A stretch of 45,812 nucleotides of DNA from Naasia sp. Lineage in GTDB: Bacteria; Actinomycetota; Actinomycetes; Actinomycetales; Microbacteriaceae. Shown one piece after another: positions 16,877 to 25,502 of this stretch; the first letter of the stretch is position 1, and every line of letters starts with the position of its first letter. The stretch spans positions 1 through 45,812 of the forward strand of contig NZ_JAODMK010000010.1 of NCBI RefSeq assembly GCF_025465545.1. Reading direction: 5' to 3'. A program made the translations under genes and the position numbers. Under the pieces are notes generated by a model that did no database searches, was not told the origin of the DNA, and saw only the letters and a list, made by a program, of their open reading frames with translations.

Positions 16877-19300
16877 TCAGGGCGCGGAAGTCGCTGAGGG
16901 AGTCGGCGTCGGCGGTGCGACGGCGGACGGCGTCGGCGACGGCACGGGAGTGGCGGGCGGCGAGGCGGCCGGCGTCACCGGAACCGACGGCTCCGCGGGA
17001 TCCGGACCGGCGGGCTGCGAGCCGTTCGGATCGGGTGTCCCTGCGGGATCCGGAGTGGCGCTGCCGGGCGCGGCGGGAGAAGGCCCCGGCGTCGAAGAGC
17101 CGGCGACGGACGGGACCGGGGTGGGCGTGGCCGCAGGGTCCACTGCGGGCACGGCTGCCGGGTCCGCTTGGATGACGGCTGCCATCCGGTCCCGGATGTC
17201 ACTGAGCCGGGCCTGGATCTCGGACAGGGGCACGTCCCGGATGTTCCTGCCGAACTCCGCGAGCTCCTCGAACAGCCCGGCGAGGTCCGTCATGCTTCCC
17301 TCGCTCAGCGGACCCGTCACCGTGAGCACCAGCTGCTGGGCCAGCGCGAACGCGACGCAGTCCACGCAGTTGTAGTTGACGGCCTCGGCCAGGTTCTGCG
17401 GCACGACGACATCCGCCTGCCCCACGACGAGGACCACCTGGAAGCCGACGGCGACCGCCGCGCAGCCGGAGCAGCTCGCGAAGGCGTAAGCCTCGTTGGT
17501 CGTGTCGACCGTTCCGCCGTCGGCCCAGACCAGGGCGAAGGCGACGTCGTAGACGACCGACCCGTCGGTGGTGTTGACCGCGAGCGCCTGGCTGCCATCG
17601 CCATCCGGAGCGTTCGGCCGGTCGAAGGGGAAGACCCAGGCCGGAGGGTCGGTCCCCGAGCCGGTGTCTTCGCCGGCGGCCGGGCTGGGCCTGCCGACCG
17701 GCGCCGGAGCGGCGCCAGGGTTCCGGGGAACGAGCAGCAGCGACAGGGCCGGGCTGTCGGCGGTCGGCAGAGCGGCGTCGGCGGGCCAGAGCACCACGGT
17801 GTCGTCCTGGGCGCCCGCCCGCAGCTGCCCAGCCATGGGGGCGACGGCGCGGACGGCGTCGAGCACGGTGCCGGACTCGTAGGCCTGAACGGGCCGATAG
17901 GCCTGGCCGTCCGGCCACCAGACGAACGCGAGTGCCGCGAGGACCGCGACAGCCGCTCCCCCGGCAAGCCCCCGTCGCACCGGCCGGTCGCGGGTCGACT
18001 GCCAGGCGCTCGTGACCGTCTGGCGCAGCACCCGGAGCAGGATGTAGACGAGCCCCGCGACGGGGATGGCGATGGCGACGATGCCCAAGGCCCGCGCCGC
18101 GACCCCGCCGACGTCCCCGGTGCTCCACGCCGTGCTCAGGTGCTGCTGCTGCTCCACGATGCTCGCCCATGCGGTGCCCAGCACGCGGGGGAAGGCGAGG
18201 ACCATCAGCAGAAGCGAACCCAGCAGCATCGGCACGACGAGCAGGACCCAGAGAGAGATCACCGCGCGCGCGCCGGGCTTGAGGACCTTCGACTCCTGGT
18301 CGCCCCAGTGCCAGGGCAGCAGGCCCCGCAGAGTCGGCCGGATGCGCTGGAAGAGGTCGGGGACGCCGGTGGCGTCGGCCAGCAGGTGGTAGCCGTCGAA
18401 GCGCACGATGGGAGTCAGCTGGCGCAGCATCTGCAGGATCTGCGTGGCGACGATCAGGAGGAGTGCGTCGTACCGGGTGGCGAGCCAGAGCAGGACGATG
18501 ACGACCGAGACGATGGCGTTGAAGTAGAGGCCGCCCGCGTCGGTGCGGAGGCGGCCGACGCGTCCCAAGCGGTAGGAGTCGGTCACGTCCGTGTAGAAGG
18601 CCGGCCAGACGAGGTAGAGGCCGGCGCCCATGGTCCCGGGCGCCGCTCCCCCTCGGGTGGAGGCGGCGGCATGGCCGAACTCGTGGAATCCTGCCGACAG
18701 GAGGGTGACGAGGAACACCAGCAGGAGCAGGCCGGGCTTCTCGAACGCCTGATGGGTTGCGGAGCCGAGGCCCTTGTCGAAGAGCAGCCACCAGCAGATC
18801 GCGAGGAACGCGAGCAGCACCGGCACTGCGACGAACGGCGTGAAGAGTCGGGCGAAGGGCGCGGTGAGGCGGCGGGTGCGCTCGGGGTCGGTGACCGCGA
18901 TGCGGAACCGCATCCGCAGCAGGGGGTTGGCGCGCTTCACCTCCGGTTCGGTGCCGTCCGGGCGCTGCAGCAGGCCGAGCGGGAGCAGCTGGGCGGCGAT
19001 CAGCTTCTCGATGTCCGCGCCCGTCACGGATCGGGAGGTCGCGCTGCTGACGGTCCCGGCGATCTCGTCGGTCGTGCGGACGCCGTCGATCGCCTCCATC
19101 ACCTGGTAGAGCAGCGGCGTCAGCTGAAGGGTCTGGCCATCGCCGCGGCGTACCAGGGACGGGGGTTCCCGATACCCGGAGCCCGCGAGCTCGCCGAGCA
19201 GCTGCACGCCCGCGGCGTGCGTCGGCACGCTGCGTCCGGGCGGCGCTGCCTGAGCCGGTGGGCCGTCCGCACCCGGCGGCCCACCGGCCTCGATGGACAT
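16877..19300 (-). CDS. Polytopic M50-type zinc metalloprotease with PqqD/RRE-like N-terminal domain
   Basis: This 807-aa protein starts with a winged-helix domain of PqqD/RRE type (about 48-112; QLTPLLYQVMEAIDGVRTTD, then the GLL end), a fold known to bind leader peptides in RiPP systems. About eight membrane spans follow (157-460). Zinc-site motifs are HEFGH (206-210) in a membrane segment and FDGYH (301-305), whose Asp302 would be the third ligand, as in site-2-type peptidases. A large presumably extracellular part (465-710) contains CSGC (610-613) and CVDC (645-648), and the tail (711-807) is Pro/Thr/Ser-rich. It starts six bases after the repeat-protein gene with no ribosome site of its own, so translation is coupled to it. 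Related proteins are usually labelled peptide zinc metalloprotease; the function is unknown. Confidence 0.8.
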   Translation of the reverse strand: MSIEAGGPPGADGPPAQAAPPGRSVPTHAAGVQLLGELAGSGYREPPSLVRRGDGQTLQLTPLLYQVMEAIDGVRTTDEIAGTVSSATSRSVTGADIEKLIAAQLLPLGLLQRPDGTEPEVKRANPLLRMRFRIAVTDPERTRRLTAPFARLFTPFVAVPVLLAFLAICWWLLFDKGLGSATHQAFEKPGLLLLVFLVTLLSAGFHEFGHAAASTRGGAAPGTMGAGLYLVWPAFYTDVTDSYRLGRVGRLRTDAGGLYFNAIVSVVIVLLWLATRYDALLLIVATQILQMLRQLTPIVRFDGYHLLADATGVPDLFQRIRPTLRGLLPWHWGDQESKVLKPGARAVISLWVLLVVPMLLGSLLLMVLAFPRVLGTAWASIVEQQQHLSTAWSTGDVGGVAARALGIVAIAIPVAGLVYILLRVLRQTVTSAWQSTRDRPVRRGLAGGAAVAVLAALAFVWWPDGQAYRPVQAYESGTVLDAVRAVAPMAGQLRAGAQDDTVVLWPADAALPTADSPALSLLLVPRNPGAAPAPVGRPSPAAGEDTGSGTDPPAWVFPFDRPNAPDGDGSQALAVNTTDGSVVYDVAFALVWADGGTVDTTNEAYAFASCSGCAAVAVGFQVVLVVGQADVVVPQNLAEAVNYNCVDCVAFALAQQLVLTVTGPLSEGSMTDLAGLFEELAEFGRNIRDVPLSEIQARLSDIRDRMAAVIQADPAAVPAVDPAATPTPVPSVAGSSTPGPSPAAPGSATPDPAGTPDPNGSQPAGPDPAEPSVPVTPAASPPATPVPSPTPSAVAPPTPTPSATSAP

Positions 19301-19306
19301 CGGCGA

Positions 19307-20047
19307 CTACTGCTGCAGATCTGACGTCTGGTCGGCGTTCGCCGTGGCCGATCCGTCGATCTGCTGATTGATGATGGCGTCCTGCTGCGCGATCGCGACG
19401 GCATCGCTGTCCACCGAGCCGATGTTGGCGGCGACGGCGGCATCGATGGGCGCGGCGACGTTCGCGTTGGCGGCGACGGCGCCGTTGATGGGTGCGGCCA
19501 GGTCGGCGTCGGCGGCGAGGTTGACGTCCACGTTGAGCAGGTCGCCGTCCAGGGCCGACGCGGCGTCGCCCACGGCGCTCGTGCCGGCATCGGGCAGGGA
19601 ACCGCCGGGCAGTGCCGCGCCCGCGTCGGGAAGCGCACCGTCGACGGGGATCCCCTGGGCGTCCGCCGCCGCGGCGTCCGGTGCCGCGGTCGGGTCCGCC
19701 GCGGTGGCATCGGGCGCGGCGCTCCCGTCCTGGGTGATCACGCTGTCCTGGCCGCTGGTCGCGGTGGCGTCAGCGGCGATGCCCTGGTCGATGAGGGTGC
19801 CCTGGTCGGCCAGGGCTTGGGCGCTGGAGCCCGAGGAGAGGATGTTGGCCCCGACGGCCGCATCGATGGGGGCGGCGACGTTCGCGTTCGCGGCGACCGC
19901 GAGGTCGATGGGGGCGGCCACATCGAGGTTCAGATCAAGGTCGGCGTTGAGATCGAGGATCGAGGCGACTTCCTTGTCGGGCAGCGCAATGACGGTCTGC
20001 GCCTCCAACTCGTCGTGGGTCAGCGGCGGAAATTCCTCTGCGGTCAT
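19307..20047 (-). CDS. Acidic Ala/Asp-rich repeat protein, possible substrate or precursor of the M50 protein
   Basis: This 246-aa protein has no Arg, Cys, Trp or Tyr, and only one Lys (25), one His (11) and one Phe (6). Residues 1-30 are unique and leader-like (MTAEEFPPLTHDELEAQ, then VIALPDKEVASIL). Two long repeats of about 60 residues follow (41-100 and 181-240), each beginning with two tandem 14-residue units such as VAAPIDAAVGANIL, and ending in a Gln/Asp-rich segment. An Ala/Pro/Asp-rich linker (101-168) joins them. There is no signal peptide or membrane span. AGGGAG lies upstream of the ATG. It is the first gene of the operon with the M50 protein, which suggests that it is processed or exported by that protein; this is inference. 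Function unknown. Confidence 0.75.
   Translation of the reverse strand: MTAEEFPPLTHDELEAQTVIALPDKEVASILDLNADLDLNLDVAAPIDLAVAANANVAAPIDAAVGANILSSGSSAQALADQGTLIDQGIAADATATSGQDSVITQDGSAAPDATAADPTAAPDAAAADAQGIPVDGALPDAGAALPGGSLPDAGTSAVGDAASALDGDLLNVDVNLAADADLAAPINGAVAANANVAAPIDAAVAANIGSVDSDAVAIAQQDAIINQQIDGSATANADQTSDLQQ
19328..19507 (-). repeat. Second copy of the 60-residue repeat inside the repeat protein
   Basis: It encodes residues 181-240, with the tandem units LAAPINGAVAANAN and VAAPIDAAVAANIG followed by DAVAIAQQDAIINQQIDGSA. It aligns without gaps to residues 41-100, exactly 140 residues (420 bp) apart. Confidence 0.7.
19748..19927 (-). repeat. First copy of the 60-residue repeat inside the repeat protein
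   Basis: It encodes residues 41-100, with the tandem units VAAPIDLAVAANAN and VAAPIDAAVGANIL followed by AQALADQGTLIDQGIAADAT. It pairs with the copy at 19328-19507. Confidence 0.7.
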
Positions 20048-20174: not shown

Positions 20175-20936
20175 CTAATTCGGCGGCTGGCCGTTCGAGG
20201 CCGTCACTCCCCCGTCGACCGGGAGGATCACGCCGGTGAGGAAGCGTGCGTCGTCGCTGGCGAGGAAGAGGATCGCGTCGGCGACCTCCTCCGGCTCGCC
20301 GAAGCGGCCGAGCGGGATCCGCTCCTGGAAGGCGGCGAGGATCTGGGGGTCGCCGATCATGTCCTCGGTCATCGCCGACCGGATCAGGGTCGGCGCCACC
20401 GCGTTGACCCTCACGCCGTCCTTGCCCGAGTCGAGGGCCATCGCCCGGGTCAGGTTGCTCACCGCACCCTTCGCCGCGTTGTAGGCCGCCTGGCGCCAGT
20501 CGGCCGCGAGCCCCGAGACGCTGGACATGTTGACGATGTTGCCCTTCGACCTCACGAGGTGGGGCAGCGCGGCCCGGCAGCCGAAGAAGACCCCGTCGAC
20601 GTCGACGCTCATGATCTTGCGCCAGTCCTCGGTGCTCGTCCCCGGCACGTCCGCCATCACGACGACGCCTGCGTTGTTCACCAGCACGTCGAGCGAGCCG
20701 AAGGAGTCGGCGGTCTCGTCGATGAGGTCGGTGATCTGCTGCTCGTTCGACACGTCGGCGACCCTGACCGTCGCCGTGCCCGCCGGCAGGTCGGCGGCGA
20801 CCGAATTCAGTCCCTCCTCGTTCTGGTCGACCAGGACGACGTGGGCGCCCTCCCGGCCGAACGCTCGAGCCGTGGCTGCACCGATGCCCGAGCCCGCGCC
20901 TGTCACGATCACGACCTTGCCCTCGAACCGCGCCAT
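20175..20936 (-). CDS. SDR family oxidoreductase
   Basis: This 253-aa classical short-chain dehydrogenase has TGAGSGIGAATA (12-23) for NAD(P), LVNNAG (about 85-90), the catalytic Ser in VNMSSVSG, YNAAKGA with the Tyr-Lys pair, and FLTGVILPVDGGVT near the end. An Asp (VLVDQN) after the second strand favours NAD over NADP. Length is normal. It lies between the helicase gene and the repeat-protein operon on the same strand with a 127-bp gap to the latter, so it is probably a separate unit. The substrate is unknown. Confidence 0.92.
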   Translation of the reverse strand: MARFEGKVVIVTGAGSGIGAATARAFGREGAHVVLVDQNEEGLNSVAADLPAGTATVRVADVSNEQQITDLIDETADSFGSLDVLVNNAGVVVMADVPGTSTEDWRKIMSVDVDGVFFGCRAALPHLVRSKGNIVNMSSVSGLAADWRQAAYNAAKGAVSNLTRAMALDSGKDGVRVNAVAPTLIRSAMTEDMIGDPQILAAFQERIPLGRFGEPEEVADAILFLASDDARFLTGVILPVDGGVTASNGQPPN

Positions 20937-24523: not shown

Positions 24524-24707
24524 GGGATGCGAATCGACGATCGGGCCGGGCACCCCACCGATCAGGTCGACGAGCTGTCCGTCGGGGTCCGAGGCTCAGC
24601 CGGGCGGCGCGCAATAGCCGCCGCCCGTTCTGGGGCCGCCCCTTCTGGGAGTGTCGTCCCTGGTGGCGATGGGAATAGCGTCGGCGCACCAAGCGAAAGA
24701 CGGACCG

Positions 24708-25502
24708 ATGACCCTCACTTCCTCTGCGACGAGCACCGGCCTGGCCGGGCAGCTCCTCATCGACGAAGTCCTGCGCCGGCTCGAACGCCAGCCCGAGCGC
24801 ACCCTCCTCGATCGCGTGCTGGGCCACTCGCCCATAGCGGAGCGGGATCTGCCCTGGTATCTCGGAGCCAAGGGCGAACGGGTGGTCGGCGCCGTCCTCA
24901 GTCGGCTCCCCCAGGGGTGGGCCGTTCTGCACTCGCTGCCGATCGGCCACGCGGCCGATATCGACCACATCGTGATCGGGCCGGGCGGCGTCTTCGTGGT
25001 CAGCACCAAGCATCACCCGGGCAAGAAGGTGTGGGTGGCCGGTCACGGCTTCCTCGTCTCCGGCCGCCGACTTCCCTACATGGGCAAGGCGGGCCGCGAG
25101 GCGGACCGCGTGACGGAGACCCTCGCCTCGGCCGGAGCGTTCGGCATCCCCGTGGAGCCGATCATCGTGCTCGTCGGCGTCGCGTCGCTCACCGTCCGGA
25201 GCCAGCCCGACGTTCCCGTGCTCGAGGCCCGGCGTCTGCTCTCCTGGCTCGCCTCGCAGCCGCAGCGGCTCGAGGCGGAGGCCGTGCAGGAGCTCGTCCG
25301 CCGGCTCTCCCGAGCCGACCTGTGGGCGGACACCCGTCCGCACGTCGCTCACGCCGGTGTCCGCTTCGGGCAGCTGGATGCGCAGGTGCGCGCCGCTTCC
25401 GTGGTCCGCCGGCTCTGGACCGTCGGAATCGTCGGTGCGGCGGTCTGGTGCGGCATGATCGCCGTGCCCTCCGCGATGGCCGCGCTGACGCTGACGCAGT
25501 AG
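24708..25502 (+). CDS. NERD domain protein with C-terminal membrane segment
   Basis: This 264-aa protein contains a NERD (nuclease-related) domain. The key stretch is ADIDHIVIGPGGVFVVSTKH, where the Asp and Lys match the nuclease-like D...(S/E)xK pattern of the family, after GAKGERVVGAVLSRLPQGW. The last 30 residues hold one hydrophobic span (LWTVGIVGAAVWCGMIAV), so the protein is probably tail-anchored with the NERD domain in the cytoplasm. Start at ATG 24708, with AAAGACGGA upstream. It converges on a membrane protein gene with only six bases between. NERD function is not established. Confidence 0.85.
   Translation: MTLTSSATSTGLAGQLLIDEVLRRLERQPERTLLDRVLGHSPIAERDLPWYLGAKGERVVGAVLSRLPQGWAVLHSLPIGHAADIDHIVIGPGGVFVVSTKHHPGKKVWVAGHGFLVSGRRLPYMGKAGREADRVTETLASAGAFGIPVEPIIVLVGVASLTVRSQPDVPVLEARRLLSWLASQPQRLEAEAVQELVRRLSRADLWADTRPHVAHAGVRFGQLDAQVRAASVVRRLWTVGIVGAAVWCGMIAVPSAMAALTLTQ

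Follow-up and report, generated by a model that had tools for sequence, protein, structure and literature searches.

A leader-bearing repeat protein and an RRE-like M50 membrane protease as a candidate peptide-maturation pair in Actinomycetota

We analyzed a 45,812-nucleotide stretch of DNA from Naasia sp. (Actinomycetota, class Actinomycetes, family Microbacteriaceae), comprising positions 1 to 45,812 of contig NZ_JAODMK010000010.1 in assembly GCF_025465545.1 and hereafter called the window. Its minus strand carries a gene for a 246-aa repeat protein (the precursor; 19307..20047, ATG start), which is followed after six bases (19301..19306, from precursor stop to protease start) by a gene for an 807-aa membrane protease (16877..19300, ATG start), so that the two open reading frames (ORFs) lie as a first-pass annotation of the sequence had placed them. 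We consider it probable that these genes constitute a dedicated leader-directed peptide-maturation system. Sequence comparisons and structure models support the elements of this reading, namely the conserved pair, an N-terminal domain in the protease with the predicted fold of a recognition element (RRE) of ribosomally synthesized and post-translationally modified peptides (RiPPs), a predicted M50 fold, the division of the precursor into leader and core, and a link between a CxxC domain and cores with a predicted beta motif.

In the mechanism that we propose, the precursor would be made in the cytosol with a leader of about 30 residues, the N-terminal RRE of the protease would bind the leader motif LxxxEL...ALPDKEV, and the membrane-embedded M50 site would remove the leader at or near the membrane. 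The core, consisting of two beta-forming modules on a flexible linker, would then exit the cell, where the CxxC domain could hold or organise it. From studies of daptides and epipeptides (the available parts of PMC10036551, PMC10885120, and PMC7614699), we infer that the RRE presents the leader and that the M50 site cuts; the route of export and the hold of the CxxC domain on the core outside the cell are more conjectural. The earlier proposal of a ribosomal product that is recognised and then processed or exported is supported by the RRE, the M50 core, the adjacency of the genes, and the retention of the leader while cores differ, with binding, cutting, and export as its putative steps. Since the pair has no conserved tailoring gene as a neighbour, its products appear to stay unmodified.

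Conservation of the gene pair

A search of genome contigs yielded 204 relatives of the precursor, the best 80 of which were kept as loci. The first-pass annotation had proposed checking whether the two genes adjoin in other genomes, and they do: in all 80 kept loci, the protease gene lies downstream of the precursor gene on the same strand. The intergenic gap has a median of 7 nt (range -4 to 245) and does not exceed 40 nt in 76 of the 79 scored loci; locus L098, in which the protease start is miscalled and the contig breaks off within the gene, does not enter the gap statistics or the protease alignment. Arthrobacter, Nocardioides, Blastococcus, Saccharothrix, Actinokineospora, and Mycolicibacterium are among the genera with the pair, which is present, for example, in the non-pathogenic Arthrobacter globiformis NBRC 12137 (L049). 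Within 344 genomes of the class, the precursor was found in 22, and 21 of these have a protease scoring at least 400 bits, the gene of the 22nd being cut by a contig end. The host's own genome (2.76 Mb) contains a single match for each protein. In all seven sequence pairs tried, the ratio of nonsynonymous to synonymous substitution rates (dN/dS) was 0.155-0.302 for the precursor and 0.299-0.361 for the protease. This purifying selection, together with conservation across genera, rules out an artefact of low-complexity, GC-rich ORFs.

No third conserved gene accompanies the pair. The next-commonest neighbour family, an S9-type peptidase by eye, is present in 36 of 81 window-type loci, and ackA/pta-like genes are also frequent. 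The S9-type peptidase is taken as synteny because its listed loci all belong to Arthrobacter or Pseudarthrobacter, and a larger operon was rejected on this taxonomic range and the 36/81 count. The alignments used throughout are subsets, with 44 of the 81 precursors in A1 and 51, 27, 19, 25, and 60 rows in A2, A4, A5, A6, and A7, respectively, and the protease reference list excludes L098, L064, and L026. In Arthrobacter sp. OVS8 (L064:8676-11035), the protease match falls into two pieces, perhaps through a frameshift or a sequencing error. Two loci have a second stretch resembling the C-terminal part of the protease just upstream of the precursor (L085:7171-8181 and L088:6983-7972).

Leader, core modules, and protease domains

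The precursor begins with a stretch that is not repeated, after which a module of about 75 residues occurs twice, the copies being separated by a variable linker; this agrees with its initial description as a 246-aa repeat protein with a unique N-terminus. The leader (residues 1-36, end approximate; 19940..20047, minus strand, as are all features below) has a predicted helix at residues 11-16 and aligns with the leaders of much shorter precursors of 66-81 aa (hhalign 99%). Its motif ALPDKEVAS (residues 21-29; 19961..19987) belongs to a stretch, ALPDKEVxSxLDLN, that is near-invariant across the 81 window-type precursors, and it recurs as LPx[R/K] in other types. Core module 1 (residues 37-106; 19730..19939) and core module 2 (residues 171-246; 19310..19537) represent an internal duplication of the protein. 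The linker that joins them (residues 107-170; 19538..19729) is poorly conserved and has a high content of Ala, Asp, Pro, Gly, and Thr. In the structure model, strands are predicted at residues 75-91, 94-105, 215-231, and 234-245 with a predicted local distance difference test score near 70, and the remainder, including the linker, has no confident structure.

The window precursor is long, acidic, and rich in Ala and Asp, with an alternating Ser/Ala/Gln pattern. All of its basic residues (His11 and Lys25) and aromatic ring residues (Phe6 and His11) lie in the leader. Neither Cys, whose absence had been pointed out in the first-pass annotation, nor Trp occurs in any of the 81 window-type precursors. 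In the second halves of the modules, conserved residues occupy 23 of 37 even positions versus 5 of 36 odd positions (P = 3e-5, for regions picked post hoc), a bias that is absent from the leader and from the AAPIDAAVAAN stretches. The pattern is captured by a 15-residue motif, SxAxAxxxQxAxIxQ, which is predicted to form beta structure and is present in two copies (residues 74-88, 19784..19828, and residues 214-228, 19364..19408). In its strict form, the motif was found in all 81 window-type precursors and in 14 of 19 small precursors; among 2494 ORFs of loci L141-L152 and L183-L202 it matched 28, all of them precursors, and its relaxed form matched 33, one of them a non-precursor.

The N-terminal domain of the protease (residues 24-115; 18956..19231) looks like an RRE by its predicted fold and by structure and profile matches. 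The model has a PqqD-like beta3-alpha3 arrangement (a three-stranded sheet followed by three helices), the solved structures that it matches best are RREs determined with a leader peptide bound, and there is a profile match to PqqD. The Pfam PqqD model misses this domain in the scan of the host's own genome. The PqqD/RRE-like domain postulated initially is hence retained as a predicted fold, with boundaries at about 24-115 instead of 45-115. The co-occurrence of the conserved leader motif with RRE proteases suggests that this domain binds the leader.

The membrane and M50/site-2 protease part follows (residues 145-465; 17906..18868), and its HExxH and DG motifs sit in the membrane core, for which RseP, SpoIVFB, and mjS2P are structural matches. 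The HEFGH (residues 206-210; 18671..18685) and FDGYH (residues 301-305; 18386..18400) zinc motifs named in the first-pass annotation are present, and an alignment of 60 proteases shows no variation at H206, E207, G209, H210, D302, G303, or Y304; D302 we take, from the S2P family, to be the probable third zinc ligand. The NCBIfam model daptide_HExxH (NF041824) matches residues 47-329. The protease matched no Pfam family at E <= 1, a result that weakens only the assignment to M50 at the sequence level, and no usable match came from comparing profiles of the protease, the CxxC domain, the precursor, and the RRE with PDB sequences. Beyond the membrane part lie a CxxC-CxxC domain (residues 550-712; 17165..17653) and a Pro/Ser/Thr-rich tail without sequence conservation (residues 713-807; 16880..17164).

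Relatives with other cores and the CxxC domain

Protease relatives scoring 330-400 bits were found in 25 further genomes of the class that contain no window-type precursor. Eighteen of them were sampled (19 loci) and seven were not, and locus L185, in which the protease runs to the contig end, was not scored. In each of the 18 scored loci, at least one small ORF upstream of the protease shows the leader pattern, which occurs in 31 of 140 near ORFs versus 2 of 1083 others. In other classes, 18 genomes matched above 265 bits, 17 of which (18 loci) were sampled, with G533 left out. A widened leader pattern identified precursors in 12 of these 18 loci (21 of 163 near and 9 of 1009 far ORFs), and four more were recognised by reading and a both-strand search, which brings the count to 16 of 18. 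The precursors of L252 and L255 are on the strand opposite to the protease.

These precursors occur in sets of one to three per locus and comprise at least five visibly different kinds of core in many actinobacterial families. Type B loci have one to three precursors of 66-81 aa, each with one leader (GEELPDREAMSL) and one core; the protease that follows is shorter, and most of these loci also encode the CxxC domain as a protein of its own. Type C has a precursor pair with SVAESQASQSISVKQ-like tails, and both C and D have the alternating tail of the window precursor. It is absent from types E and F; the cores of type E are paired (GSPGSNN and NQW) and those of type F contain Cys. Because Cys lies near the C-terminus of the type F precursors of L187 and L188 (ACQ...TC[VTI]PA), a disulfide or other chemistry is possible there. 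Other classes added short hydrophobic cores (L259, L261) and cores that recall chaplins by eye (L262, L263, and L264, e.g. VAVPVGIAANVCGINAAVL), which also contain Cys. L249 and L251 have a leader followed by two cores, a form whose sequence layout is intermediate between the small form and that of the window. Since the LPx[R/K] motif is kept while the cores differ, the precursor N-terminus is best regarded as a leader, and the combination of a leader with a variable core is that expected of RiPP precursors. The relatives in many actinobacteria, which would use a like grip on different peptides, point to a widespread maturation route.

In a tree of 54 proteases, types B-F are each supported at 0.989 or higher, and type A is drawn together with a support of 0.141. 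Type E stands beside D and type F near C, so that E and F fall in different parts of the tree; one outgroup, L106, scored below 40 bits. Residues 517-665, in the C-terminal part of the type D protease of L193, matched MinD/ParA-like ATPase models below their cut-offs.

The CxxC domain is fused to the protease in the window and is a separate protein elsewhere; several of these separate proteins seem, by eye, to carry a signal peptide. Its two pairs of cysteines, C610 and C613 (17462..17473) and C645 and C648 (17357..17368), are invariant in the aligned rows. It was detected in 29 of the 344 class genomes, all of them among the 46 with a protease of at least 330 bits (Fisher 1e-30, a value that ignores relatedness). 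Within the class, all 13 loci whose cores have the relaxed motif contain the domain, and none of the 10 loci lacking the motif does. Not counted here are L185, L141 and L200 (the protease and its precursors lie on separate contigs of the same genome), L148-L152, which are fused loci, and L147 of type B, where the only precursor lacks the motif and no CxxC match was obtained. Types E and F lack both the core motif and the CxxC domain. In other classes, the domain is present in six of eight loci with the motif, the proteases of the remaining two (L250 and L258) running off the contig, and in none of the seven loci with neither a window-like core nor the motif (L257, L259-L264). It is fused in L247, a window-type locus that misses the motif pattern. 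L249 and L251, whose window-like cores miss the strict motif, have no CxxC match; the sequence beyond the protease extends for 765 and 189 bases, respectively. By its distribution, the CxxC domain tracks the core rather than the leader or the protease, because it accompanies motif cores and was not seen with other cores (0/17). In the window type, it is the C-terminal part of the protease and probably lies outside the cell. A comparison of the CxxC unit with the core (hhalign 17%, P 0.0014) and weak matches of the CxxC profile to other-class precursors (E 0.005-0.8 in a set of small ORFs) give only a hint of homology between the two. A 392-aa protein with the CxxC domain also occurs at L243:6926-8104, where no protease or precursor was found within 15 kb.

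Comparison with known systems and alternative explanations

The protease is kin to the daptide protease MpaP/DapP, in which, according to the available text of PMC10036551, an RRE is also fused to the N-terminus of a site-2 protease acting within the membrane, and the precursors encoded with it have leaders. A daptide cluster would be expected to have an oxidative decarboxylase, an aminotransferase, a methyltransferase, and DUF-RRE close by. However, the window protease scores 97.6 bits on NF041824, for which the cut-off is 300, and has an added CxxC domain; its partner has the leader motif ALPDKEV instead of ELExMEAP and a long repeat core that ends in Gln rather than Thr. A Pfam scan of the ten genes flanking the pair found no aminotransferase, methyltransferase, or radical SAM enzyme; a short-chain dehydrogenase (PF13561) and a zinc-type alcohol dehydrogenase are present, and DUF-RRE was not among the families scanned for. 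A PF13561-type oxidoreductase is named for Bacillota daptide clusters in the accessible portion of PMC10036551. Identity with the daptide protease, precursor, or cluster was rejected on the cut-off, leader, core, and scanned neighbours. Genome G041 contains a daptide protease of 406.5 bits and a window-type system on different contigs (L104, L112).

The epipeptide protease EpeP/YydH/LiaK is likewise of the M50 type and is believed to cleave a ribosomally made peptide and possibly to export it (available parts of PMC10885120 and PMC7614699), and in the latter source export by EpeP is itself only predicted. The window protease reaches 34.9 bits on NF058609 (cut-off 225), with a match confined to residues 152-308, and this score, together with the lack of a radical SAM enzyme among the scanned flanking genes, speaks against an epipeptide system. 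PqqD (3g2b) and the lasso B1 proteins, solved with bound leader (5v1v, 6jx3, 5v1u), have the same beta3-alpha3 fold, whereas the window's RRE is fused to a protease and its leader motif differs. SpoIVFB, RseP, and mjS2P have the site-2 protease core in common with the window protease, which adds the RRE and the CxxC domain. No description of the pair or of the leader motif was found in the literature searched, which consisted mostly of papers outside subscription. We regard the system, from its sequences, as a new form of RRE-M50 maturation that apparently proceeds without modification.

Three other explanations were weighed. It is unlikely, in our judgement, that the cores are secreted antimicrobial or signalling peptides, either bacteriocin-like or acting in cannibalism as epipeptides do, with the CxxC protein as an immunity or receptor-like partner. 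Protease relatives mature daptides and epipeptides (NCBIfam matches; available parts of PMC10036551, PMC10885120, and PMC7614699), precursors come in sets of one to three, and one type E locus (L190) has a gene for an ABC transporter close to that for the protease. On the other side, the 81 window-type loci share neither a transporter nor any other third gene, the product encoded in the window is a repeat protein of considerable length and acidic character, and the CxxC domain follows the core type and is part of the protease in the window type. A RiPP whose tailoring enzymes are unrecognised or encoded elsewhere in the genome seems less likely still. RREs usually serve modifying enzymes, Cys occurs in the cores of type F and L262-L264, a P450 gene lies near L190, and the PF13561 dehydrogenase directly upstream of the window precursor (20178-20936) raised our estimate very slightly; against these points stand the lack of a third conserved family beside the pair, the three enzyme classes missing from the ten flanking genes, and window-type cores free of Cys and Trp.

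Regulated intramembrane proteolysis, in which the precursor would be a regulator or anti-sigma-like substrate whose cutting sends a signal, is the least probable of the three. Well-studied site-2 proteases work in this manner, and SpoIVFB and RseP are among the structural matches, but no convincing membrane-spanning helix is seen in the precursor (its 19-residue hydropathy peaks at 1.37), a comparison with Pfam gave no domain for it at E <= 1, and cores vary between types under a constant leader. Leader-directed maturation remains our preferred reading, even though the unsettled topology of the CxxC domain and loci in which the CxxC gene is out of view weigh against it and lowered our confidence very slightly.

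RRE-guided processing is known as a step toward modified natural-product peptides. Here, the setting is minimal, with one substrate gene, one protease gene, and no conserved tailoring enzyme alongside, and it would offer a clean system for the presentation of a leader to a membrane protease, the exit of a core without an evident Sec signal, and the divergence of substrates under a constant leader. The leader pattern and the CxxC domain can also be used to find short precursors that would otherwise readily escape notice.

The alternating small/Gln pattern of the cores resembles curli repeats, and a possible role in surface fibres fits this pattern and the CxxC linkage. More speculatively, and with a rather modest chance of being correct, the system could be a phylum-wide export and assembly route for surface beta-fibres, in which the RRE-bound leader would replace a Sec signal, the site-2 protease would let the core pass through the membrane, and the CxxC domain, similar in pattern to the core, would anchor or nucleate the growing fibre; in the window form, two core units would then have become linked within a single chain, and the anchor would have become part of the protease. 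If so, it would be an actinobacterial counterpart of E. coli curli built from unrelated parts. Fibre formation by the beta-motif cores at the cell surface, if it occurs, would amount to a novel means of assembly in this phylum of soil-dwelling bacteria. Unlike curli and chaplins, the precursors have a leader motif, and no classical signal peptide was seen. In Pfam, which presumably includes the Curlin and Chaplin models, neither the 19 small precursors (for curlin) nor those of L262-L264 (for chaplin) gave a match at E <= 10. Four proteins compared with PADLOC models of anti-phage defence gave no match at E <= 0.001, and membership in curli, chaplins, or known defence systems was accordingly rejected.

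A scan for promoters and terminators found none. The ten genes flanking the pair encode, besides the two dehydrogenases, an AMP-binding enzyme, a DUF3516 helicase, and otherwise ordinary families by Pfam. Further along the window, 24651-25499 encodes an ordinary NERD-domain protein.

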